DNA of 60,379 nucleotides from Candidatus Zambryskibacteria bacterium RIFCSPLOWO2_01_FULL_39_39 (lineage in GTDB: Bacteria > Patescibacteriota > Minisyncoccia > Phycocordibacterales > WO2-35-19), in the NCBI GenBank assembly GCA_001823925.1, contig MHWB01000009.1, positions 89,086 to 149,464 of the forward strand. Reading direction: 5' to 3'. The position numbers and the translations under genes were made by a program. Below, one piece after another: positions 12,127 through 57,806 of the stretch (positions are counted from its first letter, which is position 1; each line of letters opens with the position of its first letter). The notes beneath the pieces were generated by a model. That model saw only the letters and a program-made list of their open reading frames with translations. It ran no database searches and was not told the origin of the DNA.

Positions 12127-12607
12127 AAATTTTTACTATATCCTTAACTAACAATCTTTTGCCTGTGATATTCATCTCGCAATTCCAAGTGGGAATAAGA
12201 CTAATCCAATGTAAAAATTCATCCTTATCTACCAGATATCTATAGACAGGTTGAATTTTTATTTTTTCTTTATTTTTTAATTTATTACGTATAAAGTTTA
12301 TTAAAGTATGTGGATTTTTACCCCAAGTGATGTTGCCAAGCCTTATGATGGTGTAATATTTAAAATTATTTTTAACCATTTTTTCCATCTCAATTTTATG
12401 TTGAGCGTATCTGGTATCAGAATAAAAAACACACAAAGAACTAAAATAAACCAAATGTTTATTTTTATTTTGCTCCATCAACAAATCTCGTTCTCTTTTA
12501 TATTCTGACTCTCTAGTTTCCTGACTATTACTTACACCAGAGGCAAAATACAAGAACTCCTTCTTGTCTTTCAGTGCGCTTGCGATGTCTCCGTCTCCTA
12601 TTATCAT
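12113..12607 (-). CDS. Short SDR/NAD-dependent epimerase-like protein
   Basis: GDGDIASAL N-terminus; YFSSLCVFY...YAQHK resembles the SDR S..YxxxK motif; overlaps the GT gene start. Confidence 0.5.
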   Translation of the reverse strand: MIIGDGDIASALKDKKEFLYFASGVSNSQETRESEYKRERDLLMEQNKNKHLVYFSSLCVFYSDTRYAQHKIEMEKMVKNNFKYYTIIRLGNITWGKNPHTLINFIRNKLKNKEKIKIQPVYRYLVDKDEFLHWISLIPTWNCEMNITGKRLLVKDIVKIYGKS

Positions 12608-12619
12608 AGAGTTTGCATA

Positions 12620-34000: not shown

Positions 34001-37000
34001 TACCTGCCGTACGAGTGATATTGCCGGCAATTGTTGTTGTTGCTCCAGCGGCAGTAAAGGTTCCATCAGACTGGATAAAGCTACCACCGATAGTTAGAGG
34101 GCCCGATGTTGCAGTAAATGAACCAGAACCTGTTATATATAGATTGCGGTAAGTGTATCCTTTAATAGTATAACTACTACTTCCTGTGTACTCTACCGTA
34201 GAGCTTCCGGTAAGAGTCGGGTAGCCAGAGTTTATAGTAAGAGTCTCTCCTCCTTGGAATTTAAAAGTACCTCCATCTTGTACAGGGAACGTTCCTGATG
34301 AGCCATTAACCGTTAGAGTATTTCCATTGATATTAAAAGTGCCTTCTTGAATAGTTAGATCTTGAGAAGCAGCATCCATTGTAAGAGTAGAAGCAAGTTG
34401 TACTTCCCCGCCGGATTTATTGATTGTTATATCTGCGTTATAACTTCCGGTGGCACCGGTTAGGTTAAAAGTTTGAGTATCGCTACCGCGAAATACTAAA
34501 GCGGTAGTTTCTGTTGTTGAGACAGTTACATCACCATAAGCTTCAGTGGTACCGCCAGCAACAACAGCACTAAAAGTAATATCACCCAAAGCAGTTATGG
34601 TGTCGCTAGAAGTAATTGTTCTACTATAGGTTGCACTACTAAAAGTAATATTATGAAAGTTTTGGCTTACATTTACATCAATAGTGGTTCCACTATTTGT
34701 TCCCTGGAAGACAGTAGTTGATGCAGAATTGTATGTACCTCCGGTCACAGAAAAGCTTCCAGAATAGTTTGTAGTATTAGTACTTCCATTGAAAGTGCCT
34801 CCAGTCATTACAAAAACATTATTGGAGTTTGGAGGATTATATGCACCGAATTCCCAATCTCCTTGGTTGAAAGTACCTGCGGCTTGATACCAGCCAGATG
34901 CTCCAATCCTAACGTTATACCCTCCAGCATTAGAGATGGGTATTGTGCCTGAGAAAGCAGCTGTAGTTGTTACTCCGTTAAGCATGCTTGTAGCGTTAAA
35001 TAAAATTGTGTCAGAGGCATCAAATGAACTATTGAGCCTTAGGTTTATGCCTGTACCGCCATTAAGATTATAAGTCTGATTTACAGCATCATCACCAAAA
35101 TCTAAAACTGCCGTACCACCATTAAATGTAGAATATTGGTAAATATTTCCCCGAGCGTCTATGGTACCCGTAGTTAGTGCCCCATCTACAAGAAGGAGGT
35201 TTCCGGTTACTATCAATGTATCACCAGAAGCTATAATACGCGTATATGGATCACCGGAATTACCAAAGGTTACATTATGGAATGTTTGGGTTGTCGGGAC
35301 ATCTATATTTGTAGTTGCACCATTTGAAGCGCGGAACAGTGTCGTGGAGGCTTGATTAAATGTACCACCAGAAATCGTGAAGTTACCAGAAAAAGATGTT
35401 GTAGCGGTACTACCAATAAAAGTACCTCCACTTAAGACAAAAGGGTTATCTGCATTTACTAAATTATACGAACCAAATTCCCACGGACCTTGCGTGAATG
35501 TACCCGCTGCCTGGTACCAGCCTCCAGCAGTAAAAGCCACTGTATAATTTCCAGGATTAGAAATTGGTATATTTCCTACGAAAGAAGAAGTTGTAGTAGC
35601 GCCATATAGAGTACTTGCGGCATTAAATAATATAGTATCAGAGGCATCAAATGAGCTGTTGAGTCTTAAAATAAGACCTAAACCACCATTTAATTCGTAA
35701 TTCTGATTTACAGCATCATCACCAAAATCTAAAACTGCCGTACCTCCGTCAAAGGTTGAAGCTTGGTATATATTTTCTCTAGCATCTATGGTGCCGGTGG
35801 AGAGGCCACCGTTTGTTAAATATAAATCTCTAGTTGCAATCAAAGTATCGCCGGAAGTAATGGTGCGAGTATAACCATTGGAATCGTTAAACTCTAATCT
35901 TTCAAAAGTTTGGCTAACATTTATGTTCATAGTAGTACCCGCAGATGCTCCCAAAAATACAGTACTTGAAGCGGCGGTAAATGTTCCTCCGGAAATTGTA
36001 AACCAACCTGTAAAAGTTGTGGTTGCTGTACTTCCTGTAAATGTTCCTCCCGTCAATGTAAAAACACTGTTACCATTAGGTACATTAAGAACTCCAAATT
36101 CCCAAGGCCCTTGTGTAAATGTACCCGCTGCCTGGTACCAGCCAGAAGAAGCGATAGAAACATTATAATTACTCGGATTGGAAATAGGTATTGTCCCCAC
36201 AAATGCTGCGGTTGTAGTGACCCCATAGAGTGTACTCGCAGAATTGAATAGAATCGTATCAGAAGCATCCGAAGCGCTGTTGAGCCTTAAGTTTAAACCA
36301 ACCCCACCGTTTAGATTATAAGTTTGACCAACACCATCATCACCAAAGTCTAAAACTGCCGTACCTCCGTCAAAGGTTGAAGCTTGGTATATATTTTCTC
36401 TAGCATCTATGGTGCCAGTACTCAAACCACCGTCTGTTAGATATAAATCACGCGTCACAACAAAAGTATCACCGGAAGTAATGGTCCAAGTGTAATTACC
36501 AACCGAACTATTGAAATCCACTTTTTCAAAAGTTTGACTAGAATTTATATTAATTGTTCGAGGTGCCGGAAGTGCGCCGAACACAGTTGTTGAAGCTGCA
36601 GTGAAAGTACCACCAGAGATTGTAAATGTATTTCTAAATGTGGTGGTACTCATGCCACCAATAAAAGTTCCACCCGCTTGAGAAAAAGTACCGTTTACAG
36701 TAAATGTATTTCCATCTGATTGGGTAATTGTGCCTGCATATGTAGATGCTATCGTCAGACCAGCAATCGTGGTGTCTGCAGCTATTGTTGGACTACAATT
36801 TGAAACGCATGTATTATCAAAAGTTACAGTATCAGCCGATGTTGGTTCAATATCTGAACTCCAATTTGCGTCAGTTGACCATAAAGCATCTACCCCACCC
36901 CCATCCCAAGTGTAAGCCGCATTAAAGGCTTCAGCTTGTGTATCTCCAAATTGAAAAAGAAGGTGGTGACTTCCCGCCTTTAAAGTAAGGTGTGAGACTC

Positions 37001-38243
37001 TAGCAACTTCTTCACAATTCCAATTTGGATAAAAGATTACATCTCCTGATAAAATCTGAGCATTTGAAGTACGATCTTCGTCACCACAAAAAAGAGAAGT
37101 AAATTCATCATCAGAAATAGTGGCTTCGTCAGCTGGAGTTATGGCGAGATCGCCTTCTCCGATTGTAGTAAAGTCTACATTCCAATATTCACCTTCTGCT
37201 GGATGTGAGTGGACATTTAAGACGACAACCTCAACGGTTGGGTCAACTATGATTGGGTAGAAAGCTCTGTTAAGCCACTCTTGATCAGGAGTAATAACTA
37301 ATTTTCCATCTATCAAATTTAATTCAATAAGAGTGCTTACATTACCATTACTATCTGTCATGTATGGAGCAGAAATTTTGTAGAGCAGGAAGAGTTTATT
37401 GCCAACTTTTCCCTTTTTATAAAGCTCTAGGACGGCATCATTTAAGACATAGTCATAACTTTCTAAATTAATATTGTAAACAAATGCACTTGGATGCCCA
37501 GTATTTTTTAATATTATATTTTCTTTAAGGCCATTTTCAGTTATTTTATATTCAATGTCAGTATCTAAAAATACATCTCTATAAATAGTATAATCATTTT
37601 TTGTCTCAGCGACTTCTGTTGAAATACTGTCGGCAAGTGAAAGTCGCAAAGGTGATGTCTCGGTACTGTTTGTGGGGTTAATTAGTATTTCATCTGATGA
37701 GATATTTTGAGGTAAAATCAAATCTAGAGTATTATTTTTGAAATTAAGCTTTGGCGAGATTTTTTTCTCCGTGATCTCTTCAGCAGAATTTACAACTTCA
37801 TTGGTAGAAGTGGCAATCGGGGTTGAACTCGTCGCGTTCTCTATAATTTTAATCGCAGGAGTATTTGCAGATTCGTCTGAAGTTTTATTCAAAATTATAT
37901 CTGTAGTTGAGGTTGAATTATTAGAATTTTCTATTAAATTTTCTGCACCTGATACTTTAGGAGTGGTTGTAGACCCTTCAGTCTCGGTACTATTTTCTTC
38001 TAAAATTTCAATGCTAGTATTTTCCTCTATTATAATTTCAGGCGTAGTTTCTTTTTGGGGTATTGCTTCCTCTTTCTGTAATAGCACTTCCTCTTGTATT
38101 CCTATTGGTTCTGGTTCTAAAATCTCTTCTGCTAGAATTAAAATAGGTGATGAAAATATATACCAAAAAGAAAAAAACCAAAGTAAGATTTTAGTCCCAA
38201 TATTATTAAATTTTAAATAATATAGTTTTTTATTACTACGCAT
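31017..38243 (-). CDS. Giant (2408 aa) secreted surface protein: beta-repeat modules, FnIII/PKD-like region, TMs, carboxypeptidase-regulatory-like C-terminus
   Basis: N-terminal hydrophobic signal; repeated YQASTFDGGTAVLDFGDD...NLRLNSSFDASDTILF modules; late TMs; RYWGMVYDSENKQPIDPAIVTLINIHT. Confidence 0.8.
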   Translation of the reverse strand: MRSNKKLYYLKFNNIGTKILLWFFSFWYIFSSPILILAEEILEPEPIGIQEEVLLQKEEAIPQKETTPEIIIEENTSIEILEENSTETEGSTTTPKVSGAENLIENSNNSTSTTDIILNKTSDESANTPAIKIIENATSSTPIATSTNEVVNSAEEITEKKISPKLNFKNNTLDLILPQNISSDEILINPTNSTETSPLRLSLADSISTEVAETKNDYTIYRDVFLDTDIEYKITENGLKENIILKNTGHPSAFVYNINLESYDYVLNDAVLELYKKGKVGNKLFLLYKISAPYMTDSNGNVSTLIELNLIDGKLVITPDQEWLNRAFYPIIVDPTVEVVVLNVHSHPAEGEYWNVDFTTIGEGDLAITPADEATISDDEFTSLFCGDEDRTSNAQILSGDVIFYPNWNCEEVARVSHLTLKAGSHHLLFQFGDTQAEAFNAAYTWDGGGVDALWSTDANWSSDIEPTSADTVTFDNTCVSNCSPTIAADTTIAGLTIASTYAGTITQSDGNTFTVNGTFSQAGGTFIGGMSTTTFRNTFTISGGTFTAASTTVFGALPAPRTININSSQTFEKVDFNSSVGNYTWTITSGDTFVVTRDLYLTDGGLSTGTIDARENIYQASTFDGGTAVLDFGDDGVGQTYNLNGGVGLNLRLNSASDASDTILFNSASTLYGVTTTAAFVGTIPISNPSNYNVSIASSGWYQAAGTFTQGPWEFGVLNVPNGNSVFTLTGGTFTGSTATTTFTGWFTISGGTFTAASSTVFLGASAGTTMNINVSQTFERLEFNDSNGYTRTITSGDTLIATRDLYLTNGGLSTGTIDARENIYQASTFDGGTAVLDFGDDAVNQNYELNGGLGLILRLNSSFDASDTILFNAASTLYGATTTSSFVGNIPISNPGNYTVAFTAGGWYQAAGTFTQGPWEFGSYNLVNADNPFVLSGGTFIGSTATTSFSGNFTISGGTFNQASTTLFRASNGATTNIDVPTTQTFHNVTFGNSGDPYTRIIASGDTLIVTGNLLLVDGALTTGTIDARGNIYQYSTFNGGTAVLDFGDDAVNQTYNLNGGTGINLRLNSSFDASDTILFNATSMLNGVTTTAAFSGTIPISNAGGYNVRIGASGWYQAAGTFNQGDWEFGAYNPPNSNNVFVMTGGTFNGSTNTTNYSGSFSVTGGTYNSASTTVFQGTNSGTTIDVNVSQNFHNITFSSATYSRTITSSDTITALGDITFSAVVAGGTTEAYGDVTVSTTETTALVFRGSDTQTFNLTGATGSYNADITINKSGGEVQLASTLTMDAASQDLTIQEGTFNINGNTLTVNGSSGTFPVQDGGTFKFQGGETLTINSGYPTLTGSSTVEYTGSSSYTIKGYTYRNLYITGSGSFTATSGPLTIGGSFIQSDGTFTAAGATTTIAGNITRTAGTFTHNSGTVHLNGASQAVNDSTTFNNLYKVITSTDTLTFEAGATTTIAGTMTLRGASGNVLTLQSSTNGSPWYIDPQSTRSISYLDVNDSYNSNATVIEAAGTNSTDGGGNTNWRFETNAPTAGSVTITDTQLDALTVKISGASDDTALATLPYVFHNITTDVYFTATSSTYATSTGLSNGTSYTFEVGVYDVYGNSATTSSVSGSTLSPSSPSDSGGGNSGGGSSSGNGRGGISDLFSVLINNGEFYTNTKDVILNLKYPPQSNAVTFLVSNTSDFSSFVSIPITPIFDWVLCSLSSCPNGEYFVYVKYLDNKDKTLSKVSDSIILQTTTVKPPPIIPPSTNPGNSNPPTSPPGNGGGTIESLKITATVSSDGGDFLPISYGNTLTDFKLRINTETSIKSKIDYQIDWDSDGIFDDLLSSNVKTITTSVHNFTIPGEYVVFVRASSSDFIATSRARIIVENPQFESTIAGSLDRKNWTTNLYAPIDSTVSFRIESFGNVEGWYSYNISCDSSGIVDREYKKTTRTTYIARNTCLYTQSGIYTVTLIATNGSLVSTSQMFVVVGSDPAPPPPISTSTPPTTPPVATSTPPILSTTTPPISNNPPGGAQNGEGTIDRVIADVVIPFVDHTSYIASSIFADLSENKIFNVLTSLLPQIFSILRILLALLESLVGLIKSNPDMVAIISGAVAIPILTVLRNMLSPFAIRNFFDLYAGVLSVFNNFLTWSHLRTKRRYWGMVYDSENKQPIDPAIVTLINIHTDKIVETAVTDLYGRYGFMNYMGQFRIDAKKTHYLFPSNKILGDSDGLFNNVYHGEVINIEKVDDLITPNIPMDRMFYDWNQEFKTVHIHPRVDYILSYIFKVLSLSLTAVVLYLFIFNTSLITTISLALTIIMMFVSRAIPQGKLWGRVKDDKNRDISIVLYYEGLSNVVVSHAVISDNGRYFLKTLPGKYILSVRNSKSGLEIYKTHVKVGKIGVVNKEIDISEISVGEMGSGQ
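35728..36416. repeat. Direct repeat inside giant surface protein gene (68-nt exact copies at 35728..35795 and 36349..36416)
   Basis: tctaaaactgccgtacctccgtcaaaggttgaagcttggtatatattttctctagcatctatggtgcc at both positions. Confidence 0.9.
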
Positions 38244-45383: not shown

Positions 45384-47108
45384 TTACTTCATACGCAATG
45401 ACCATACTGCACCATTTTGTATATAGATTACCCTATCTTCCCAATTTGAAAGGATCATGTCGGTCCCGATTCCCTTGTCTTCCACTCTGTTGATGTCTTG
45501 GTTCTTGATGGGGACAAAGATATCGAGTTCACCGTCTTTAATAATCGTCGCGCAGACCCCTTTCGGAAGAATGGCTAAATTGAGTTCCGGACCGTCGGTT
45601 TCGGCGACCCAAACTTTGTGCGATTGATATTCACGGTCGAAAGTGATTTCCACCTTATGGTAAACACCACTACGATCGATACCAATGAGCGAGACGAAGC
45701 GATTACCTGCTTTTGCCGTCACCACCTTAAGTTCATCGAGTTCTCGGATACGCGTTTGAATACCCTTTTTCTCTCCGAAAGGTGTGATGATAAACTTGGC
45801 GCCCATAGTGTCCATAACACCGACACCCTGGAACCACTTTGTTGAATTAACCATCGCATTCCAATTCTTACCGATCGATACGATTGGTTTATCAAAGAAT
45901 TTTAGATCAACTTCACTCAAGCCGGCATCCGTCACAACAAAAAGCCGATTCTCAAAACTGACTAAATTGTATCCGTTGAGACGGAGTGACAACTCAGTAG
46001 ACTTGAGACTACTTTCTTCTACATATTGGAAGTGAATTTCTCGATTCCGCATTTCTGCGACAAGCCACCCATTTCCAGATTTTACGACTTCGCAATTTCG
46101 AGAAGTGACCATACAGATCTCTCTCTTGGTTGCCAAGTCGATCATTCTACCAGAAGAAAGCAGAACTGCTCCGCAATGGAATGTTTTCACCGCCGGATCG
46201 CCAGGAAAGTCTGCGAGTTTTTCGAACACAAGTAACCCCGTCCTTCCTGTAGTAACCATCCGCAGAACCTGAGCGGCACGCGGAGTGACAACACTTGTAT
46301 CGAATGGCGATGGAGGATTATTTCTCTCACCATTTTGAAATGCAGCTTCGTACCAACCAAGAAGCGGGTTCGGTATGGTCGAGAAATCTCGAACAGCCCG
46401 ATTCAACCTTACTCCTTTGCTAAAAACAGAGGCGTTTGCTTTCATCCGTCCTTCAAGGTCTCCGCGGTCGAAACCGTCGAGAGTCCCTTTGTAAGGATGA
46501 AGCCCAGTGTAAATCTGGAATGTGACAATCCCCCACGCGAACCAGTCTGTGCGTTCGTTGAAGGTTTTCGAGTGCCAATCCCGAATCGAAGGCATGATAA
46601 CGCTAGCCCCCCATCTGCCAATCGACCAGGAATCGACATCGATCACTCGTGGCTCCGGATCACGACCTCCGAAAAGCGTAAACCAATTGAGCTCGTTAGC
46701 GTCAACTAGTACAGCTTTATTCTGATGAGCGAAAGAAAACACTTCTCGCATGCGATTGACCAAAGTCGAAGCATGGGCTTGAGTGAATCCTTCTTTCAAC
46801 CAGAAGTCGTTAGTGAACACTCTCGCGAGAGGATGTCCATCAACATACGGTAAGTAGTGTCCGGCAAGATCTCCGTTTGGTTTGGTAACCAAACCTAGAG
46901 GAGAACTCACGCAGGGATGTTTGAGGTGAGCGAGAAGTCGGATTTTATCCGGCATACCTCGCTGTTTTGCTTCTTCCGGCTTGTGGTAGATTTTCACCAC
47001 CATGTCGGAGATTTTATAGATCGTGCCCTCGCCACCACTCGCAACATAGTTGCTATCGCGGAGAGTTACAGCGCCTTTATGTTCGAGCACAACAGAGATG
47101 TTGCTCAT
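45384..47108 (-). CDS. Ser/Thr kinase-like domain + C-terminal repeat (possible beta-propeller) region
   Basis: ASGGEGTIYKI glycine-rich loop; MVVKIYHK; VDANELNW; RVIDVDSW in place of DFG; DWFAWGIVTFQIYTGLHPYKG. Confidence 0.8.
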   Translation of the reverse strand: MSNISVVLEHKGAVTLRDSNYVASGGEGTIYKISDMVVKIYHKPEEAKQRGMPDKIRLLAHLKHPCVSSPLGLVTKPNGDLAGHYLPYVDGHPLARVFTNDFWLKEGFTQAHASTLVNRMREVFSFAHQNKAVLVDANELNWFTLFGGRDPEPRVIDVDSWSIGRWGASVIMPSIRDWHSKTFNERTDWFAWGIVTFQIYTGLHPYKGTLDGFDRGDLEGRMKANASVFSKGVRLNRAVRDFSTIPNPLLGWYEAAFQNGERNNPPSPFDTSVVTPRAAQVLRMVTTGRTGLLVFEKLADFPGDPAVKTFHCGAVLLSSGRMIDLATKREICMVTSRNCEVVKSGNGWLVAEMRNREIHFQYVEESSLKSTELSLRLNGYNLVSFENRLFVVTDAGLSEVDLKFFDKPIVSIGKNWNAMVNSTKWFQGVGVMDTMGAKFIITPFGEKKGIQTRIRELDELKVVTAKAGNRFVSLIGIDRSGVYHKVEITFDREYQSHKVWVAETDGPELNLAILPKGVCATIIKDGELDIFVPIKNQDINRVEDKGIGTDMILSNWEDRVIYIQNGAVWSLRMK

Positions 47109-47983
47109 GTAAGTGTTTCCTCCTCTGTGTTGTCGATCCTAACGACTGCATATGAAATGTCGTCGGCAGGACCTTTTCCGGATTGTTGCATGTCCTTGAT
47201 ACCTCGGATCATTCGCCGTTTGGCAAATTCTCCACCAGTATTTTTGAACGAAAGAAAAGCTGACACAGCATCTCTCCAAGAAACATTTTCGATTTGAGTG
47301 ACTCCGTCTGAAAAGACGGCGACAAACCCAACTTCGTCCAGTTCCTCTTGCGAGATTTTTGTCACAACTCCTTCGAGTCCTTCACGAAGAGTAAATTCTT
47401 GCGAACTTTCTTCTGTATAAGAACCGTCAGTCTTGCGAATCACAGTCGAACACGAAAGGCGTTTTGCCTCCAAGTCTCCACCGTGTGCACCGACAAACTT
47501 TTCGATACCACCTTCTCCGTACGAAGGATAGAATGGTGTATTGTCGGCCCATTCGTAACGGGACATTTTAATATGCCCATCGCGATATTTTAATCCAACA
47601 ACTCCATCTCCTTGAATGTGCACGAATCCGCCATGTTTGGTGAGATATACATACCCGCATGTTGCAAGCATGTCTACTCTTTCCAGACCAAGCATGAGTC
47701 GTGCAGTGCCGATAATTTGCTGTTGGCGAGATGTAATACTCACCACAGCAGTGTTTAGTGCTCCTCCCGAAGCCTTCGCATGATCGCGAATTGCTTGGAA
47801 AGTTGAGAGCGTAAGAATTCGGGAACCCACATCAGTGTGCCCTCCAGTCGAACAACCGTCCGAAACGATGGCACAGGCGATTGTGTAGTTTGAACCAGAA
47901 CGTGAATAGTCCTGGCAAGGTTTGCCATTTGAATAATGAGCAGAACCTATTTGGAAATAATGGTCGGTGTGGAATATTATCAC
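47105..47983 (-). CDS. PP2C-family protein phosphatase-like
   Basis: IVSDGCSTGGHTDVGSR; FSDGVTQIE; ADDISYAVVRI; GTG start preceded by AGAAAGGAGA. Confidence 0.85.
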   Translation of the reverse strand: MIIFHTDHYFQIGSAHYSNGKPCQDYSRSGSNYTIACAIVSDGCSTGGHTDVGSRILTLSTFQAIRDHAKASGGALNTAVVSITSRQQQIIGTARLMLGLERVDMLATCGYVYLTKHGGFVHIQGDGVVGLKYRDGHIKMSRYEWADNTPFYPSYGEGGIEKFVGAHGGDLEAKRLSCSTVIRKTDGSYTEESSQEFTLREGLEGVVTKISQEELDEVGFVAVFSDGVTQIENVSWRDAVSAFLSFKNTGGEFAKRRMIRGIKDMQQSGKGPADDISYAVVRIDNTEEETLT

Positions 47984-48014
47984 CTTTTCTCCTTTCTTTA
48001 ATTTTCAAAGAATA

Positions 48015-48045
48015 AGGGGCGGTGCGCATTGCTGCGACCGCCCCT
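48015..48045 (-). terminator. Hairpin after vWA gene
   Basis: aggggcggt...accgcccct. Confidence 0.75.
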
Positions 48046-48061
48046 CTTGGCCTTCTGTTTA

Positions 48062-48820
48062 TCAGATGGTGGCCGAAATCTTTTGACTTGGTCCTTTGCT
48101 TCCCAACGCTTGGGACTGGCTTGAGACCGATTGAGAAACGAACTCCGCGAGCTTCGCCAACTTACCTTTGGTTGCTTCACCAGCGTCGATGAACTTCAAA
48201 CCAGAGGTCTGAGCGAACTTGTCGAGTTTGGGCGCGTACTGCATTGCATTCACGCCGATCAGAATTCCGACGAGCGATTCGATTTCTTCGCCCTTCGTAG
48301 CCCGATCCATCTCCTCCTTGATCATCCGCATCGTTACCGATGAAGTGTTGTCGTCGCCGTCAGTGATGACGAAAACGATTCCGTTCGCCAGGAAATCCTG
48401 ACTCATCAGTTTCTTTGCGTATGTGTTGGTCGCTCCGACCGCCGAAAATGTCGCATCGTAAAGATTCGTATTCCCGTACGGATTGAACGGCTGATACTGC
48501 GTCGGATCAATCTCGCCAAGCGGCTTGAAGCCGTGGATTTCCTCGATGCCGGTTGGCCTCAAGGATGACGAGAAGAGAATTACGCGAAGCAGCAAGTTAT
48601 TCGAACGCGGCGACTTCTTGCACGAATCCACTGCCGCCTTCAGGCATTTGAGGAGTTCATCCGCAAAGCCTTGGACGGACCCAGTGACGTCAATGACGAT
48701 CGTCACAAGTGTGTATTCAGTTGCACCGAGATGCTCGATGCGAGTTGCGGAAAACTGGAAAGCTTGCGCTCCGCCGATTTTCCCCGTTTCCATCGTAGTG
48801 TCAGTCATCATTCTTGGCAT
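48062..48820 (-). CDS. von Willebrand factor A domain protein
   Basis: LVTIVIDVTGSVQGF (MIDAS-like), NTNLYDAT, GIVFVITDGDDNTSS. Confidence 0.88.
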   Translation of the reverse strand: MPRMMTDTTMETGKIGGAQAFQFSATRIEHLGATEYTLVTIVIDVTGSVQGFADELLKCLKAAVDSCKKSPRSNNLLLRVILFSSSLRPTGIEEIHGFKPLGEIDPTQYQPFNPYGNTNLYDATFSAVGATNTYAKKLMSQDFLANGIVFVITDGDDNTSSVTMRMIKEEMDRATKGEEIESLVGILIGVNAMQYAPKLDKFAQTSGLKFIDAGEATKGKLAKLAEFVSQSVSSQSQALGSKGPSQKISATI

Positions 48821-48852
48821 AGTTTTTCTCCATGTTCCTTTCTGATTCTGTC

Positions 48853-49680
48853 CTACGACAGGAAATCGGTTGAAGTGGTGATCGTCATACCGCGGCTCTT
48901 CATATCTCGGAAGAAATCCTCGGCAAACTTCGGAAAGTCCGGACCGCCAGGCGTCTGAGGGACCGGTGACATGCAGTCGCGCAACAAGTGAAATTTCTTG
49001 ATGTGCGCGTCGCCGATGTGATCGGCAATCTGCTGTACAGTCTTCAGAACGCAGTGACTTGAAGCCTCGCCGGCGACTCCCACAATATCTGCTTCGGAAA
49101 GCATTGAGAGGAAGCCGGTGTTGAGACTGGTCGACGGATCATTCGGATCCGGTACTTCGGCCATGAGAGCGCCGTAGTGTTCGGTCCAAGGGTTGGAACC
49201 CTTCGTAACGTAGTCGACCATCGCATATTGCTCGTCCGACCACTTTTGAAGTGCGTCGTTGAGTTTCGAATGGACATTGTGTCCCCATGTGCCGATGAGG
49301 CAATGGGGCGGCCAGACGAAAATCATGTAGTTGCTCGCCGTTGATTCCAGAGCGTGCGCGTATTCGAGAGTCCGTTTCCGGAATCCCGGGTTACGCGGCG
49401 TCCAGATGCCCGCTTCGATGTCGGCCGCCGAGATCATGATGAAAGGATTCGGCTGATTGCCGTTCCCGTCCATCCACCACGCCGGATGCGCGATGTCGAT
49501 GAGGCGATGACTGTCGAGAGTGACGTGAATGTCTTCCAATTTCCGGCCGGTGCGATCGATGAATTTCGAAAGTCGCTCCATGTCGGAGTTGGCTCCTGTG
49601 ACAGGGAGTTTTGCTCCCGGAAGATCACAGAAATCATTCTGAGGGTCGATTACCACTAAGTGAATATTGGCCTTAGCCAT
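48853..49680 (-). CDS. pncA: Isochorismatase-family nicotinamidase
   Basis: VVIDPQNDF; VTLDSHRLIDIAHPAWW (metal D/H/H); VTKGSNP (Lys); GEASSHCVLKT (Cys). Confidence 0.85.
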   Translation of the reverse strand: MAKANIHLVVIDPQNDFCDLPGAKLPVTGANSDMERLSKFIDRTGRKLEDIHVTLDSHRLIDIAHPAWWMDGNGNQPNPFIMISAADIEAGIWTPRNPGFRKRTLEYAHALESTASNYMIFVWPPHCLIGTWGHNVHSKLNDALQKWSDEQYAMVDYVTKGSNPWTEHYGALMAEVPDPNDPSTSLNTGFLSMLSEADIVGVAGEASSHCVLKTVQQIADHIGDAHIKKFHLLRDCMSPVPQTPGGPDFPKFAEDFFRDMKSRGMTITTSTDFLS

Positions 49681-49779
49681 AGGTCGTTTCTCCTTTTTTT
49701 AAGTCAAATTGCATTTTAGAGCAGTTGCTCTGTCCGGGATGACCCTATCATATCTATATAAAAAGTCAGGGTAATAAAA

Positions 49780-49803
49780 GCGCCCTGGTTTGACCCAAGG
49801 CGC
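49780..49803 (-). terminator. Terminator after NMNAT-Nudix gene
   Basis: GCGCCTTGGGTCAAACCAGGGCGCTTTTATT on minus strand. Confidence 0.85.
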
Positions 49804-49826
49804 CTGTTTAAAAACCTCTATTTCAC

Positions 49827-50714
49827 TCACTTTTTAATGATCAGAGCGAGTGGTTTGTGACAATCCACAAGAACTTTTTCAAGATTATTCAAATTGACCC
49901 AAGTTACCTGATTGACACCCCTTCCTGGAAGAGGCAGGCCTCCTAAATATCTAGTCTGCAGAAGAATTGTGACAACTCGATCATGTGTCTTACGAAATCT
50001 CCAGTCATCCAACTTTAATGATTGAAGAAGTTGTAGTGAGGTAGTGGTTATGCCTGGAATTTCTTTGGCAATACACCGAACTCCCGCACTTTCATACGAA
50101 TCATCAAGTTCTGGATCAAAAAAGACTCCAGGAAAACGCAGCTTGCCTTCCTCATCTTTCTTTCCAACCAGTAAAATCTGTTGAAAAGTTGAATCAAGAA
50201 CAGCCACATCTACTGTCGGGTACCCAGATCGCTTTCGATGCAAGTTGGCGTAAATTACTCCCGAGCGAAAATCAGTAGAATCGATCACATCGACCTTCTC
50301 TCGGATTTTGGTTGCACTTCCAGAAAAAATTGTTGGTACCTCGTGAGTTTCGAACACACCTTGGTAGGTATGTACAAAACTATCTCGCGAACCGTAGATA
50401 ATTGCAGTACGATTCGAAAATGTATTTCTAATGACCTCATCGATTCTCCTAGATCGTTCTTCGTAAGAAGACGGTATGGAGTCTGACGAAACGATTGCAA
50501 TCTTTTGAGGATAAACACTCTCGATCATTTGTCGGCGCATCTCAAATGACAACGGATTTCTATCAGTCATAATCGGAGAACAACCAAGTATAACCAGAGT
50601 AGTTTTGTGCCTTTCGAGCACATAATCAAGAATGTACCGGTGCCCCTCATGGAGAGCCGGTACCTGAAAACGAGCGACAATTACACCGACCACTTCATTT
50701 TGTATAAGGGACAT
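49827..50714 (-). CDS. Bifunctional nicotinamide-nucleotide adenylyltransferase / Nudix-fold protein
   Basis: VGVIVARFQVPALHEGHRYIL nucleotidyltransferase motif; C-terminal Nudix-like domain with degenerate box; ATG 50714 with SD GGAGGAA chosen over 50732. Confidence 0.85.
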   Translation of the reverse strand: MSLIQNEVVGVIVARFQVPALHEGHRYILDYVLERHKTTLVILGCSPIMTDRNPLSFEMRRQMIESVYPQKIAIVSSDSIPSSYEERSRRIDEVIRNTFSNRTAIIYGSRDSFVHTYQGVFETHEVPTIFSGSATKIREKVDVIDSTDFRSGVIYANLHRKRSGYPTVDVAVLDSTFQQILLVGKKDEEGKLRFPGVFFDPELDDSYESAGVRCIAKEIPGITTTSLQLLQSLKLDDWRFRKTHDRVVTILLQTRYLGGLPLPGRGVNQVTWVNLNNLEKVLVDCHKPLALIIKK

Positions 50715-50762
50715 CTTAAATTCCTCCGCCACTTTTATACCACAGATTAGATAAAAATAAAA

Positions 50763-50797
50763 CAGCTCGTATCCGCCGATGTGGCGAATACGAGCTG
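50763..50797 (-). terminator. Terminator after nadE
   Basis: CAGCTCGTATTCGCCACATCGGCGGATACGAGCTGTTTTATTTTT on minus strand. Confidence 0.9.
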
Positions 50798-50818
50798 GTA
50801 TAAAAGGTACTTTATGAT

Positions 50819-52747
50819 CTAACTAGCGGTGTCTGTACAGCTTAGAGGCTTTTCGAGCCACTCTGCCGATTGGACCACTGGCAACTGAAGTGCACGTTCC
50901 CGATCGAGATCGAGCGAGCCAAGATGCACTGATTGCGGTGCCTGGACCCACTTGAAAATCGAGATTCGGAAAAGATACATAAAGCGGTCGACCCACTCCG
51001 TAAGCTCCTTCTCTGCGTATTCTGGGAACATGTAGTGGAGAACATACGAGACTTCCTCTGGTGCCATCTTCTCTCCGGCAAACAACGCATAGCATGCGTC
51101 GAGTACCGGAAATGGCATAAGGTCGCGCTCGTCAGCCTGATTTTCCGCAAGTTCCGCCGAAGCTGTACTTGCAATTAATCGATCGAGCGGATCCAAATTG
51201 AATACCGTTCGATTGAGATATTTAATGAGCTCGATAACCACTGTCTTCGGAAGATTTCCGGACAGTGAATATGCTCCCATCATATCTCCGCCAATCGTCG
51301 TGTAGCCTACCGCCTTCTCCGACATGTTGCTCGTCTGGAGCCACATACCGCGATTTGCATTTGACCAATCCCACATCCGTTTTCCACGAATGCGAGCCTG
51401 GATGTTTTGCATACCAACCTTAGTGATCTTTTCACCAGGAGCAAGCATTTTTTCCACATCCTTAACAGCCTGCTCAAATTCGTCTTCAATGGACAGCTCG
51501 GCAAAACTTACACCGAGTGTCTCACAGAGATCATATCCGATTTCTCTGCTTTCCGAAGAGTTGAATCGAGTTGGCATCGAGAAGCACCGGATAAAATCCG
51601 AAAGCTCCCTTCCGCTTTTCTCGAGTTTCTTCGTCGCGTAGAGGTGAGCGATGAGGAGCGTAAGTGCCGAATCTTTACCGCCAGACATGGCGATGCCGAT
51701 CCGATCAAACGCTCCCGTTTTACGAAAGTATCCATCAAGTCCTGTGAGCATCGCTTGTACCAAATCAGAGAAATATTCTTCCTGAGGATTTGGACTGGTC
51801 GTTGCGGCGGGAATAAAGAAATTTTTCGTAGCTGGAACCGGGTATGGATAATCAGAATTACCCAGTCGGACTTTAATATCCGTATGAATTACAACTGTTG
51901 GTTCTTCGTCTCGCAAGAATCTCTCGCGATCCGAACGCCAAGTTGTATTTTCTCGCCGTTGTCGCGATGTGCGATCGAGATCAACAACTTTAGTGGAAAA
52001 TCCTTCATCCCAGCGCCGAGCTTCAAGAAGCATACGGCCACATTGATTTATAAACCCTCCACCATCAAACGCCAATCCATCGTTTCCACCGAATTGATTT
52101 ACATAGACGACTGTCGCGACATTGTCTGCCGCTCGGGTCGAAATGAGTTCGCGTCGTGTTCCTAAAACGCCCGCACGATACGGTGAGGCAGAGATATTAA
52201 TAATCGTTTCTGCCCCGCTATATGATCGTCGTCGCATTGGTCCGTCAGGTGACCAGATGTCCTCGCAGACTTCAATCGCCATTTTCCCGAATGGGAATTG
52301 GAAGATGAGATCTCCAAAAGGAACATCATTCACACTACTGACAAACCCAGGAATTCCTGCCGAGTATGTACGCTTCTCGTAGAAGACGCCATAAGTTGGA
52401 AGTTTCTCTTTGGGGACGAGTCCGATGATATGACCTTGGCAAACCACGGCCGCAACATTGTATGCGTTCGATTCGTACTCCACAGCGAGACCTACAACGA
52501 AAACCGTATTGAGTCGCCATGTCGCTTCTGTGAACCGGACGAGACCTTCCCATTGACCCTCGATAAACTTTCCCCATAACACCAAATCCTCGACTGGATA
52601 GCCGGAAATTGACTGTTCGGGAAAACACACGATAGTGCAACCTTCTTTAGACATCTGCCCTGCAAGTTGCACCAAACGTTCAGTATTTGACCTGAATGCC
52701 CCAACGGTTGGGTCGGGATTTGCAAGACCAATCTTGATGAGATTCAT
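50819..52747 (-). CDS. nadE: Glutamine-dependent NAD synthetase
   Basis: Nitrilase domain (CFPEQSISGY, PKEKLPTYGVFYEKRTY, AIEVCEDIW) + synthetase domain (GIAMSGGKDSALTL). Confidence 0.95.
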   Translation of the reverse strand: MNLIKIGLANPDPTVGAFRSNTERLVQLAGQMSKEGCTIVCFPEQSISGYPVEDLVLWGKFIEGQWEGLVRFTEATWRLNTVFVVGLAVEYESNAYNVAAVVCQGHIIGLVPKEKLPTYGVFYEKRTYSAGIPGFVSSVNDVPFGDLIFQFPFGKMAIEVCEDIWSPDGPMRRRSYSGAETIINISASPYRAGVLGTRRELISTRAADNVATVVYVNQFGGNDGLAFDGGGFINQCGRMLLEARRWDEGFSTKVVDLDRTSRQRRENTTWRSDRERFLRDEEPTVVIHTDIKVRLGNSDYPYPVPATKNFFIPAATTSPNPQEEYFSDLVQAMLTGLDGYFRKTGAFDRIGIAMSGGKDSALTLLIAHLYATKKLEKSGRELSDFIRCFSMPTRFNSSESREIGYDLCETLGVSFAELSIEDEFEQAVKDVEKMLAPGEKITKVGMQNIQARIRGKRMWDWSNANRGMWLQTSNMSEKAVGYTTIGGDMMGAYSLSGNLPKTVVIELIKYLNRTVFNLDPLDRLIASTASAELAENQADERDLMPFPVLDACYALFAGEKMAPEEVSYVLHYMFPEYAEKELTEWVDRFMYLFRISIFKWVQAPQSVHLGSLDLDRERALQLPVVQSAEWLEKPLSCTDTAS

Positions 52748-52750
52748 ACC

Positions 52751-53713
52751 TTACCCTTTCTCTTCTGTAAGTTTTTTTATTGCGTCGACAAAAAGATGCG
52801 AAACATCCTTCACGACGAATTTTGAGAATTGTGACGAACGAACAACACGCTGATGATTACTCATCGGGTGAGAATTCGTGATGATAACCTTCTGAATTTT
52901 TGAATATTCCAGAAGTTCAATCGCTTTGTCGTCATTGAACGCTCCATGACTTGCCACAAGGTAAATTGCAAGAGCCCCCTTTTCGAGGTAAGCATTTGCG
53001 GCGTCTACTGCAGTCTTCGCACTCCGGAGCATATCGTCATAAATAATGACATTCTTTCCGTTCACATCGCCGATGACATCGTGGATTTTTGTCTCCTCGA
53101 AATCACGAGATTTGCGTACGAGCGCAATGGAAGTGCCAAACTTTTTTGCAAAAGTCTCAACCCAGAGCGGACGCCCCAGATCAGCCGATGCAAATATAAA
53201 GTCGGACAAATTGAGCTTTTTCACAGCTTCGGTCAAAACTGATTCTGCATAGAGCTCGAACCGTAAGCACTCGCCTTCAAAGTAGTGGACGAGGCCTGAG
53301 GTATGTAAGTCGAGCATGAGAAAGCAATTGCGAACATCGCCGTGCGGAAGCTGAGACAGCATCCGCGCATTGATTTTCGCCGTTACAATCTCACCGGGTC
53401 TCACAGCCCGTTCCATCGTTGAATATCCGAAGAATGGTAAACAGAAGATGATCCGGTGCGCGCCGTATTTAGCGGCAGCGGTTCCAACACGGCAAATTTC
53501 GGTAAAGTCTTCGTCAGTGTGAGTACTTCCCACGATGACTACGTCTCTGCCGAAGAATTCCATACGTTCTCCCATATCAATTCTCAGGTATTTCTCTCCG
53601 CCACCGAAAGTTTTACGAATTAGCGGCCATTGGTCAAGATCGTAAAGTTTTTTGCCGACAAGGTCAGCAAAATAGTCCGACGATGGAGTCGAAAGAATAA
53701 TCGGTTGTCTCAT
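52751..53713 (-). CDS. prs: Ribose-phosphate pyrophosphokinase-like
   Basis: GSTHTDEDFTEICRVGTAAAKYGAHRIIFCLPFFGYSTMER; NVIIYDDMLRSAKTAVDAANAYLEKGA; ATG 53713 with SD GAGGAG preferred over 53773. Confidence 0.85.
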   Translation of the reverse strand: MRQPIILSTPSSDYFADLVGKKLYDLDQWPLIRKTFGGGEKYLRIDMGERMEFFGRDVVIVGSTHTDEDFTEICRVGTAAAKYGAHRIIFCLPFFGYSTMERAVRPGEIVTAKINARMLSQLPHGDVRNCFLMLDLHTSGLVHYFEGECLRFELYAESVLTEAVKKLNLSDFIFASADLGRPLWVETFAKKFGTSIALVRKSRDFEETKIHDVIGDVNGKNVIIYDDMLRSAKTAVDAANAYLEKGALAIYLVASHGAFNDDKAIELLEYSKIQKVIITNSHPMSNHQRVVRSSQFSKFVVKDVSHLFVDAIKKLTEEKG

Positions 53714-53800
53714 GTAGAGTTCTCCTCTTCTAGTTTTTATTTCAAAGATCAATTCCAATTTCGAGCCACCCACAATAAATTGTGAGGGGCTTGAAAAAGG

Positions 53801-53829
53801 AGGCGAGCAAAGCCGAAGCTAAGCTCGCC
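53801..53829 (-). terminator. Terminator-like hairpin after pncB
   Basis: GGCGAGCTTAGCTTCGGCTTTGCTCGCCTCCTTTTTC on minus strand. Confidence 0.75.
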
Positions 53830-53848
53830 ATCCAGATATAAAAGATAC

Positions 53849-55096
53849 TTACGATTTGCATGCTTCAGCAAAAGTGTTGGTGTAGCCAACCATCTGCTTC
53901 ATGCGCTCGACTGCCACTCTTGGGCCAGTAGCCTTCGAGATGTTGTCCGAGAGTTTTGCCACTGGATGTCCGGCAGCCTCAACCGCTTTGACTACGATAG
54001 AAATTGATTTGAAGCCCAGATCATTTGTAAGATCTGTGCCCCAACCGAAGGTGTAGCGAATACGGCCATGAAGTCGTTCCGAGATTTCCTTCATCGTTTC
54101 TACTCGAAGACCATCAGCGAAGACGATCAATTTTTCTTTTGGATCGATCCCAGCATCCTGATATTCCTGAATCCGTTTTTCGGCGTATTTGAGCGGAATA
54201 CCAGAATCCTGTCGTGACCCTTTCCAGTTTCGAAACTGCTTCGGAGTCACAGCATTAGAGAAGAACCAGTCACTGCCAAACGTGTCTGGCAGAAAAATGG
54301 AGAGGCCCATTCCGTACTCTTCTTCCCAGTCCGCGAGGACTCGGTGTTGGGAGTAGGTTGGATTTTTCTCCGTATCTTCTTCGAAGTAGATGCCGCTGTA
54401 AACCATCGGCAGCTCATGGGCGTTCGTGCCGGTTGGCATGAGCCCGTACCTTTGAGCAAGCAGAACATTGGAAGTACCCTTGAATTGATCGGGGCATTCC
54501 TTAGCGAGTATTGAAACCACGTAATCCTGCCACTGCCGACTGAAACGTCGACGAGTGCCAAAATCAGAGAACGTGATGTTCGGATTTCTTCGTAGCTCCC
54601 GAATTTTTCTTCCGAGAGCAATCTTGCCGTCCGACTCCACCAACTCCCGTTCGAAGGGAGAGTATTTTTGCATCAGAGCGCGGTAGTAGAGTTCATTCAC
54701 GATCGACATAGCTAAGGTTTCCCAATAGGTCGCCTCCGCCCAATCGCCCGGAAAAGAAATCTTCAGTTGATCGCCGTCAATCTCGAGATTAAACTCCGGA
54801 AGAGCAAGGCCCTTCAAAAAGTTAATATAGTCGAGTTGAAACATGGGCTGTTCGTATTCATAAGTGCCCATGATGTAGTGAAGTTCTTGAGATGAGAATC
54901 GCAGAGTTCGGCAATGCTCGAGTTCTTCTCGAAGACGGCCGATACTCACGATTTCTGCAAGTGGAACTCTCGCAGTACGGTTGATGAAAGACAGAGTGAC
55001 CGGAACTTTTGGGTGCCGGTGAAAAATCATTTGCCCCATCGATAACTTGTAGAAATCGATGTCGAGTAAAGACTCGATAATCGGCTTGTCACACAT
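53849..55096 (-). CDS. pncB: Nicotinate phosphoribosyltransferase
   Basis: LLDIDFYKLSMGQMIF; FSDFGTRRRFS; LPDTFGSDWFF; WKGSRQDSGIPLKYAEK. Confidence 0.93.
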   Translation of the reverse strand: MCDKPIIESLLDIDFYKLSMGQMIFHRHPKVPVTLSFINRTARVPLAEIVSIGRLREELEHCRTLRFSSQELHYIMGTYEYEQPMFQLDYINFLKGLALPEFNLEIDGDQLKISFPGDWAEATYWETLAMSIVNELYYRALMQKYSPFERELVESDGKIALGRKIRELRRNPNITFSDFGTRRRFSRQWQDYVVSILAKECPDQFKGTSNVLLAQRYGLMPTGTNAHELPMVYSGIYFEEDTEKNPTYSQHRVLADWEEEYGMGLSIFLPDTFGSDWFFSNAVTPKQFRNWKGSRQDSGIPLKYAEKRIQEYQDAGIDPKEKLIVFADGLRVETMKEISERLHGRIRYTFGWGTDLTNDLGFKSISIVVKAVEAAGHPVAKLSDNISKATGPRVAVERMKQMVGYTNTFAEACKS

Positions 55097-55136
55097 CGTT
55101 TAAGCATCCTTTCTTTACAAGTTGCTTCCGCGTGTG

Positions 55137-55164
55137 ATTATATCATATTTATAAAAAATTGCAA
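55137..55164 (-). promoter_or_regulatory. Sigma70-type promoter of pncB
   Basis: TTGCAA-16 nt-TATAAT on minus strand, ~40 nt upstream of the pncB ATG. Confidence 0.75.
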
Positions 55165-55187
55165 TATCTTTTTATAAAATAAAAAAA

Positions 55188-55212
55188 TAGCCGCAAGCAG
55201 AGCTCGCGACTA
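55188..55212 (-). terminator. Terminator after Nudix gene
   Basis: TAGTCGCGAGCTCTGCTTGCGGCTATTTTTTT on minus strand. Confidence 0.9.
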
Positions 55213-55229
55213 CATAATTTGGGGTGGAT

Positions 55230-55958
55230 CTAAATTTTTCCAAACTTCTTTGCTGTCTTGTAAAGCATGAGGGCCGACAAAGCCTTGGCATCTGGCGTTT
55301 CCAAGGGCAGATCCTCAAGTGGTATCACCTTTAAAGTAATTTGCTCATTTTCAGCAACCAAGCCGGTGCACTTTCCCTGAAGATTTTGGATGTATTCATG
55401 GCTTACCGAAATCTTAAGAGCAAAAATCCGCAAAAATTCATCCGAACCTCCAATTGTTGGGAAGACCCCCCTGAACTTGTTGCCGTAAATTAAAGATGTA
55501 ATATCAACAAGATCTGTTCTTTTTATTTTGATTCCAGTTTCTTCCTCAAGTTCTCGTGTGGCACCCCCGACGAAGTCGTCTCCATCTTCCATTGTCCCTG
55601 CTGGAATTTCAGGGAAAGCAAAATAGCCACTTGGAAATCTTGGTTGCAGAGTGAGAATTGTATATTCCACCCCTTCGCATTCCAAAATAACGAGTATTGC
55701 CACTGATCCGCCGCGCATGAAAACGATTCCAGAAAATGGTTTGCCTTTAACATCTACCACCTCTGCCATGAACTTTATGAATTTGATTTGGTGTTTTACT
55801 CCGTGGTTCGCAAAATCAACAGACTGAAATTCTATTGACCGGACAATGAACCGGGGGTCTAGGTTAGCAACCCAGTCCCTAAATTGTCTTGAGTCGATGG
55901 CTAGCTCTTGATGCGATCCAGAGACTCGGACGGCTTTACCATGTATTTGGATTTGCAT
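55230..55958 (-). CDS. Nudix hydrolase (ADP-ribose/NDP-sugar pyrophosphatase type)
   Basis: GTMEDGDDFVGGATRELEEETGI matches the Nudix box. Confidence 0.92.
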   Translation of the reverse strand: MQIQIHGKAVRVSGSHQELAIDSRQFRDWVANLDPRFIVRSIEFQSVDFANHGVKHQIKFIKFMAEVVDVKGKPFSGIVFMRGGSVAILVILECEGVEYTILTLQPRFPSGYFAFPEIPAGTMEDGDDFVGGATRELEEETGIKIKRTDLVDITSLIYGNKFRGVFPTIGGSDEFLRIFALKISVSHEYIQNLQGKCTGLVAENEQITLKVIPLEDLPLETPDAKALSALMLYKTAKKFGKI

Positions 55959-56018: not shown

Positions 56019-56903
56019 TTATCTAAAATAATCAAAGAGAGCTTTGATACCAGAGAGATTCTCTTTCCACTCCACAGTATTATGGGTTGTAAGCTCTACT
56101 GTAATTGCTGGAATGTTTAGAGATGTGAGATAGCCTTCAGCGTCCCCCGTCACCTCGTAGCTATCAAAAGTCTTGATTGCTTTGTACCCTGAGGCTCTTG
56201 CATAAGTATTCATAATATCAAAAGTGACCGGGAGTATACCGTCTCTGCATTCCGAAGCATAGACTGCTCCTGCTTGACTGTGCCAGAAAACAGTAGCCAC
56301 TAGATTGGATTTGTTTTTCAAAACAAAATCACGGAGAGCTTTGGCCTCTGGCTCGGAGAAGGCCGTAGAACCGGCAGAGACCTTTTTACTTTTCCAAGTG
56401 CTTTCAGGTTTCCATTTACAATCAAAGTTGCGGTTGAGATCTACGTCGTTTGCATTAAATCTTGCTTTTTCAAGTACACTAGTTGTTTTAGAAATATTTG
56501 TAATATCATCAAAACCGAAGCGGCCTTCCTTCCCCAAGACTTTATAAATTCCATCTGGGTTTAATGACGGGATGACCGTCACTTTTATATTTGGAGGTAA
56601 AACGAGAGAGTTTGCCTTAAGATAATCCATAAATTTATACGAAAGGAGCACGCTATTCCATTCATAACCACCGTGCACGCCACCCACAAAAAGAAGATGC
56701 TTTTCTCCATTTCCGTAGGTGTAACTTTCTATCGCACGACCTTCTACAGAAGTGCCGATTACTTCTCGAATCTCTCTTTTGATTTCTTTGACGGCTGGAG
56801 GTGGTGGTTTCAATCTATTACTCACAAATAGAAATCCGCCAACACCAAGGAGCAAAACAAAAATTATTACAAGAGCAATTCTCCTTGGGGAGGACATGAG
56901 CAT
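56019..56903 (-). CDS. M14-family zinc carboxypeptidase-like, membrane-anchored
   Basis: N-terminal TM; VHGGYEW, DLNRNFDC, FWHSQAG, ITVELTTH. Confidence 0.85.
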   Translation of the reverse strand: MLMSSPRRIALVIIFVLLLGVGGFLFVSNRLKPPPPAVKEIKREIREVIGTSVEGRAIESYTYGNGEKHLLFVGGVHGGYEWNSVLLSYKFMDYLKANSLVLPPNIKVTVIPSLNPDGIYKVLGKEGRFGFDDITNISKTTSVLEKARFNANDVDLNRNFDCKWKPESTWKSKKVSAGSTAFSEPEAKALRDFVLKNKSNLVATVFWHSQAGAVYASECRDGILPVTFDIMNTYARASGYKAIKTFDSYEVTGDAEGYLTSLNIPAITVELTTHNTVEWKENLSGIKALFDYFR

Positions 56904-57806
56904 TTATTCAGCGTAATATTTGAGTAAAGCCAAGATACCTTTTTGATTTTTAGACCATTCTGTATCCGTATGGTTTGTAAGTAAGACGCTCACCGCCGGG
57001 ATATTGCTTTTGGCAAACCAGTTGACCATATCCCCTGTTATTTCATAGAAATTAAATTCGTTATAAGCTTTATACCCCGAAGCGTCTGCAAAGATTTTTG
57101 TGATTGCGCTAGTTTCGCTAGAGACTCCGTTGTGACAATTTGACGCAAATACCCCACCTGCCGAGCTGTACCAGACGACAATAGCCACTGGTTTATTTGT
57201 TTCTACATAATTTTTTATGGCCAAACTTTCCGGTTCAGAAAAAGCTTTGCTTCCGCCACTTACTGTTTTGTTTTGCCAAGTGGCAGAAGTTTGCCAATCA
57301 CAATCAAAATTGCGGTTAAGGTCTACATTGTTTGCATTGAATCTGCCAACTACGGTTGCGCTAGAGGCGGGCACACTAGAAGGAGTGAAGCGTCCAGAAG
57401 TCCCTACAACTTTATTTAAGCCGTCTGGGTTTAAAACCGGCAAAACGGTCACCTTTATATTAGCTGGGATGACGCTTGGATTTGCTTTTAAATAATCAAT
57501 CGCCTCAAAAGCTAAAAGTGAGGTATTCCATTCATAACCACCGTGTATGCCACCTATAAATAAAATTTCTTTGTTTCCAGTGCCGAAATGATAGGCGATG
57601 ACATCACGGCTCTCTGCTGATTTGCCGATAACAGTCTCTGGCTCATTTTGATTTGTGGTACTTGTGGCATTAAGGTTATTTTCTGCTCCCGTATTTATTT
57701 TGGAAGTATCCACCACTTCGCTGTTACTTGATAATTTTTTGCTAACAAAATAGATAGCCGCTCCAATAATAGCTAAGACTACAATCCATATAATAAAGTT
57801 TTTCAT
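56904..57806 (-). CDS. M14-family paralog, predicted inactive
   Basis: N-terminal TM; IHGGYEW and DLNRNFDC kept, but VWYSSAG (His to Tyr) and VSVLLTNH (Glu to Leu). Confidence 0.85.
   Translation of the reverse strand: MKNFIIWIVVLAIIGAAIYFVSKKLSSNSEVVDTSKINTGAENNLNATSTTNQNEPETVIGKSAESRDVIAYHFGTGNKEILFIGGIHGGYEWNTSLLAFEAIDYLKANPSVIPANIKVTVLPVLNPDGLNKVVGTSGRFTPSSVPASSATVVGRFNANNVDLNRNFDCDWQTSATWQNKTVSGGSKAFSEPESLAIKNYVETNKPVAIVVWYSSAGGVFASNCHNGVSSETSAITKIFADASGYKAYNEFNFYEITGDMVNWFAKSNIPAVSVLLTNHTDTEWSKNQKGILALLKYYAE

Follow-up and report, generated by a model that had tools for sequence, protein, structure and literature searches.

A 60,379-nucleotide stretch of contig MHWB01000009.1 from Candidatus Zambryskibacteria bacterium RIFCSPLOWO2_01_FULL_39_39 (Patescibacteriota), hereafter the window, encodes an island of nine genes, most of them for the synthesis of nicotinamide adenine dinucleotide (NAD). 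Four of the nine form a conserved unit: a long nicotinamidase-fold protein that we call PncA', a vWA protein, a PP2C phosphatase and a Ser/Thr kinase. Large phages are the main carriers of this cassette. We think it fairly probable that the island was acquired horizontally and serves to rebuild NAD, and that in it a nicotinamidase under the control of kinase, phosphatase and vWA protein gates NAD+ synthesis by the Preiss-Handler pathway.

In the ORF map of the window, nine co-directional open reading frames (ORFs) fill positions 45384-55958 of the minus strand with intergenic gaps of -4 to 146 bp, encoding a Nudix hydrolase, PncB, Prs, NadE, an NMNAT-Nudix fusion, the PncA-like PncA', vWA, PP2C and the kinase. 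A first-pass annotation made from the sequence alone had given the genes these identities, and all nine hold up, five via curated models and four via other evidence. PncB, NadE, Prs, Nudix and PP2C_2 score over the curated model cut-offs; the PncA-like protein, NMNAT, vWA and kinase are divergent, with low or no scores, and were therefore checked by structure prediction, conserved residues and comparison with solved or related proteins. The Preiss-Handler set that the annotation recognized, with Prs as the partner of PncB, is complete: PncA (as the predicted-fold PncA'), PncB, NMNAT and NadE are all encoded in the window. The genome is 800 kb in size and 98.9% complete.

The first-pass annotation had described a vWA/PP2C/kinase triad beside NAD genes. 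The linkage stands, but the triad by itself is not the unit, as the conserved unit also includes the PncA-like protein; that phages are the main carriers, and that PncA' is a distinct long form, were not part of that description. Outside this genome, the cassette turned up in about 15 other Patescibacteria and in more than 130 IMG/VR contigs, mostly of large phages (labels in IMG/VR are predicted; the LR records are genomes deposited as those of phages). The four-gene core is present in the 26 loci examined first, drawn from Patescibacteria, IMG/VR and three deposited records of huge phages (462-595 kb), each of the latter with all four genes. A vWA profile retrieved 12 genome contigs, mostly metagenome-assembled genomes (MAGs) of the Parcubacteria group, and 11 IMG/VR contigs, again with all four genes in each. 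In broader scans of IMG/VR, PncA' was encoded in 134 stretches and the kinase in 142, and among the best 80 loci of each set, whose contigs overlap, all four genes stand together in 73 (PncA'-seeded) and 75 (kinase-seeded), usually in the same order and on the same strand; several of the exceptions are contig ends. A PP2C search of 148 related genomes placed the cassette in three, and the two other carriers, from different families, keep the order PncA'-vWA-PP2C-kinase, with PncB next in line and NadE near. In four more distant Patescibacteria the order is rearranged to PP2C-kinase-PncA'-vWA, and NrtR, PncB or NadE adjoins in three of the four. One cassette filed under a Thermosynechococcus MAG (L016, JAGVDA010000006.1) lies among tail-like genes, on what is probably a phage contig. 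For the prophage-like isolate locus L037, a search for close relatives in plasmids and phages returned no match.

PncA' keeps a complete Asp-Lys-Cys triad (D12/K160/C210) and metal site (D56/H58/H65/H126), each position being conserved in 94-96 distinct sequences, H65 in 89. Its AlphaFold2 model (pLDDT, the predicted local distance difference test score, of 94) retrieves nicotinamidases at PDB ranks 1-11, ahead of other isochorismatase-like proteins. Residues and model together suggest nicotinamidase activity. At 275 amino acids (aa) the protein exceeds the canonical 210 because of insertions, which move the WPxHC motif from residue 87 to residue 123; these insertions, together with the Ser-rich tail of the vWA protein, may be regulatory contacts. 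Two large replicons of Variovorax carry PncA' without kinase or PP2C: in one (L031, 11983-15777) as PncA'-PncB-NadE, in the other (L030, 11998-15774) with vWA, an HD-like protein, a deoxyribosyltransferase and an NAD kinase. Both loci support PncA' as the nicotinamidase of the pathway and suggest that, of the three partners, vWA stands closest to it. An 882-kb Vibrio plasmid record (L032) has, at 12004-12843, a PncA' homologue of 31% identity standing alone.

The partners of PncA' are equally well preserved, with catalytic residues essentially invariant across 91-99 distinct sequences in each of the four families; the roles of these catalytic and metal-site residues we take from general family knowledge. 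The kinase scores under the Pfam cut-off, yet the lysine K39, the catalytic Asp-Asn residues D136 and N141 and the DFG-type aspartate D157 are kept in 96-97 of the 97 sequences read at those sites, and its profile matches that of E. coli YegI with 62 bits. The AlphaFold2 model combines a kinase fold with an all-beta C-terminus that has BamB propellers among its fold matches; 'propeller-like' is the strongest claim this model bears. In the phosphatase, the metal aspartates D42, D226 and D274/D275 are invariant in 93 distinct sequences. The metal ion-dependent adhesion site (MIDAS) residues of the vWA protein (D44, S/T46, S48, T118, D154) are present in 91 of 91 sequences; the window protein has no Pfam match, and a phage homologue gives a weak one. 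At one locus (L007, 5319-7078) the kinase is read as two overlapping ORFs, from a frameshift, a sequencing error or a true split.

The first-pass annotation would have counted its idea as refuted had triad and NAD genes not co-occurred in other genomes. They do co-occur, both in other Patescibacteria and in large phages, and much more often than chance would give. PncB is found in 10 of the 148 related genomes and a strong NadE in 7 (the latter count excludes the ~30-bit PF02540 matches that most relatives give), and all three cassette carriers have both (p = 2e-4 for PncB, 7e-5 for strong NadE); PncB is absent from all seven genomes of the same genus. Among 29 large cassette-bearing records of phage type (this and the other counts are inflated by related sequences), 19 match a terminase profile, 20 encode an NAPRTase-family protein (19 over cut-off), 21 NadE, 20 a CTP_transf_like protein, and 13 both a strong PncB and a strong NadE. 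Phage PncB and NadE pass specific models, PncB as a nicotinate phosphoribosyltransferase (NaPRTase) over the TIGR01514 cut-off. Where a record has a strong PncB or NadE, one of them lies at most 5 kb from the cassette in 14 of 23 cases against 2.0 expected, a comparison good to an order of magnitude only, because the ends of some cassettes had to be estimated from the ranges of their loci. Weak, divergent NAPRTase-like proteins were also noticed in G522, G523, G532, G518 and G543, three of them close to NadE and the cassette.

The reverse approach starts from PncB. A single-protein query of IMG/VR gave nothing and alignment queries were required; seeded with phage PncB, the scan found 234 stretches encoding a relative, and among the best 80 loci NadE is near in 55. 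In those 80, the triad accompanies PncA' in 9 of 9 cases and short canonical PncA in 0 of 36 (p = 1e-9, which overstates independence since some rows are near-copies and kinship is uncorrected). In four further loci the weak hits (26-35 bits) are nearest to PncA', and no triad is present. Many IMG/VR contigs (L256-L335, e.g. L264, L311 and L331) carry a plain Preiss-Handler operon of short PncA, PncB, NadE and often NadD, with no triad. A chance neighbourhood of cassette and NAD genes was considered and rejected in view of the IMG/VR loci, the 5-kb proximity and the PncB-seeded scan. The NrtR_WHD Pfam model recognized regulators of the NrtR type, which are ADP-ribose-responsive, close to some phage cassettes and to 8 of the 11 from Patescibacteria in L007-L018. 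In Lloydbacteria (L006, 14939-18979; L014; L015) the genes after the cassette encode another PncA, of the canonical kind, together with NadD, PncB and an ADP-ribosylglycohydrolase.

The island has a G+C content of 47% against 38% around it, with 64-66% at third codon positions in vWA and PncA'. The PncA' tree consists mostly of phage sequences, and those of Patescibacteria lie within it, interspersed among phage rows in a clade with a Shimodaira-Hasegawa-like approximate likelihood ratio test (SH-aLRT) value of 99. Both observations point to horizontal acquisition and fit exchange with phages, which probably happened more than once; transfer may have run from phages to Patescibacteria or in the reverse direction.

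How might such an island work? NADases leave nicotinamide and ADP-ribose. PncA' would convert nicotinamide to nicotinate, PncB would join nicotinate with phosphoribosyl pyrophosphate (PRPP) supplied by Prs to give nicotinate mononucleotide, NMNAT would turn this into nicotinate adenine dinucleotide, and NadE would complete NAD. The Nudix enzyme could cleave ADP-ribose to ribose-5-phosphate that feeds Prs, so that both NADase products would be re-used. In phage NAD operons the triad accompanies only one form of the first enzyme, and the simplest reading is that it regulates PncA'; there is good reason to think that NAD synthesis may be under phospho-control, as the first-pass annotation had suggested. 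Control would fall on pathway entry, the nicotinamidase step: the kinase may directly phosphorylate, and PP2C dephosphorylate, PncA' and/or the vWA protein, with the latter as an Mg-dependent adaptor holding PncA'. ATP-costly NAD synthesis would thus be switched on only at need. A benefit against NADase immunity, or against starvation of an episymbiont, is no more than plausible. The broader proposal is that large phages have one more way of reconstituting NAD+, in which Preiss-Handler entry switched by kinase, phosphatase and vWA protein rebuilds NAD+ upon host NADase immunity, and that Patescibacteria took it over; we advance it tentatively, rating it somewhat below even.

Several observations weigh against a PncA' gated by its triad for NAD synthesis. 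PncA' scores under the curated nicotinamidase cut-offs, far under that of NF008623 (25.5 against 174 bits) and also under that of PF00857 (20.1 against 27). In Variovorax, PncA' stands with PncB and NadE and no triad, or with vWA only, and Lloydbacteria combine the cassette with a short PncA. The 411-kb L041 record and three prophage-like isolate contigs, possibly fragments, contain no NAD gene. The background of 14 PncB matches in 50,697 phage records was obtained by another method and is not size-matched to large phages. The low PncA-model scores, together with the insertions, would suit a different isochorismatase-fold amidase acting on another metabolite; we consider this very improbable, given the complete catalytic triad and metal site, the run of nicotinamidases heading the fold search, and the PncA position that the protein takes in PncB/NadE operons, also in triad-less Variovorax.

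Alternatively, PncA' might only clear nicotinamide, a product inhibitor of NAD-consuming enzymes such as ADP-ribosyltransferases and sirtuins, while the triad regulates other host or phage proteins and the NAD genes aid metabolism in parallel. Some cassette records are without detectable PncB or NadE, and the large propeller-like domain of the kinase could recruit other substrates; the triad is, however, tied to one form of nicotinamidase and not to phage NAD operons generally, which makes this quite unlikely in our view. Nor do we think it likely, though it deserves some weight, that the cassette is a conflict system for defence or superinfection exclusion, in which a TerY-P-like triad senses invasion, PncA' as effector shifts the nicotinamide and nicotinate pools, and NAD genes adjoin since conflict costs NAD. 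Reported stand-alone anti-phage systems include TerY-P-like modules whose kinase is fused to an OB fold (PMC11090510), the kinase and PP2C of the cassette share homology with YegI and PphC, and the distribution is sporadic and mobile. Yet the carriers are mostly phages, the cassette occupies the place of canonical PncA in NAD operons, the core has no toxin-like partner, and PADLOC detects none of the nine proteins save for two sub-noise matches, to Prs (pVip, 13 bits) and Nudix (15 bits), which we rejected as noise.

Table 1. Genes of the island in the window, with the evidence for each assignment
Feature	Positions	Strand	Evidence
Ser/Thr kinase, YegI-like, all-beta propeller-like C-terminal domain from about residue 282	45384..47108	-	catalytic residues, YegI profile, AlphaFold2
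PP2C protein phosphatase	47105..47983	-	PF13672 55 bits, over cut-off; PphC match 28 bits
vWA protein, MIDAS and conserved Ser-rich tail (SxSSQSQxLGTGGPSQ)	48062..48820	-	MIDAS residues; tail alignment
PncA', nicotinamidase-fold, 275 aa	48853..49680	-	conserved catalytic and metal-site residues; AlphaFold2 fold
NMNAT fused to degenerate Nudix domain	49827..50732	-	NadM-Nudix 2qjt match, E = 2e-5; weak NCBIfam PRK05379
NadE, glutamine-dependent NAD synthetase	50819..52747	-	PF00795 (CN_hydrolase) and PF02540 (NAD_synthase) over cut-offs
Prs-like PRPP synthetase	52751..53773	-	TIGR01251 156 bits, cut-off 113
PncB, nicotinate phosphoribosyltransferase	53849..55096	-	TIGR01514 316 bits, cut-off 270
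Nudix hydrolase, possibly ADP-ribose pyrophosphatase	55230..55958	-	PF00293 over cut-off; best PDB match ADP-sugar pyrophosphatase, E = 4e-4 (weak)

The Prs-like gene is the sole PF14572 match and the only PRPP synthetase found in the genome. Its PRPP/ribose-phosphate loop is altered to DDMLRSAKT, related enzymes having a loop of the DDMIDTxGT type, and its substrate could differ. The Nudix box of the NMNAT fusion looks degenerate, and the domain may be a sensor or a relic. Tandem genes for M14-type zinc carboxypeptidases (56019-57806) adjoin the island; in G003, of the same genus, such genes are likewise tandem and the island is not beside them. In an empty-site comparison within the genus, the genes flanking the island were found in G003, but on short separate contigs. 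Two ORFs of 2408 and 1262 aa (31017-38243 and 6618-10406) have no Pfam match at E 0.001.

With a nicotinamidase that comes together with a kinase, a phosphatase and a vWA protein of its own, a class of orphan kinase triads gains a concrete candidate substrate, and four genes make two questions testable: which proteins TerY-like triads phosphorylate, and how the timing of NAD+ repair is set in phages. Moreover, a bacterium with a reduced genome holds an NAD island of phage type, although most genomes of its order are without PncB and strong NadE. In the open-access literature we found no paper on a nicotinamidase-vWA-PP2C-kinase cassette, and priority is thus uncertain.

The TerY-P triad consists of vWA, PP2C and a Ser/Thr kinase (PMC11090510, after Anantharaman 2012), and the island likewise has a MIDAS vWA, a PP2C and a Ser/Thr kinase in one operon, with their sites intact. 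It differs in its near-obligate nicotinamidase partner and in its kinase, which has an all-beta propeller-like domain, no OB fold and no TerY-P zinc ribbon (0 of 26 cassette kinases have two CxxC motifs after residue 230). PADLOC gives no TerY hit among the nine proteins, and neither Ter genes nor restriction-system families are among the scanned ORFs of the window, other loci not having been systematically scanned; the earlier label of a non-Ter variant is apt. E. coli YegI-PphC-YegL is the best-matching profile for each part (kinase 62, PP2C 28 and, marginally, vWA 7.7 bits), but no NAD genes adjoin it.

In the literature consulted, phage NAD+ restoration is either NadV/NadM/NadR salvage or NARP1, none with a kinase module. 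NARP1 reconstitutes NAD+ in phages by joining ADP-ribose pyrophosphate (ADPR-PP) and nicotinamide in two steps through Adps and Namat (PMC12774641). Both NARP1 and the cassette systems are phage-carried means of rebuilding NAD+ from NADase products; the latter use nicotinamidase, NaPRTase, NMNAT and NadE with a signalling triad, and have no Namat, the window and phage proteins being NaPRTases over the TIGR01514 cut-off. The Prs-like protein, which could be a Prs or an Adps, passes TIGR01251 but has the unusual loop. With NadV-NadM/NadR salvage, surveyed in a paper whose main text never mentions nicotinamidase, Preiss or NadE (PMC9503650), the island shares NAD synthesis encoded by large phages and the NMNAT step; NadV takes nicotinamide directly, whereas the island uses nicotinamidase, PncB and NadE. 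Closest in chemistry is the bacterial Preiss-Handler pathway under NrtR, with the same enzymes and, in most Patescibacteria loci, the same kind of ADP-ribose-sensing regulator, to which the island adds a phosphorylation triad and the long PncA'.

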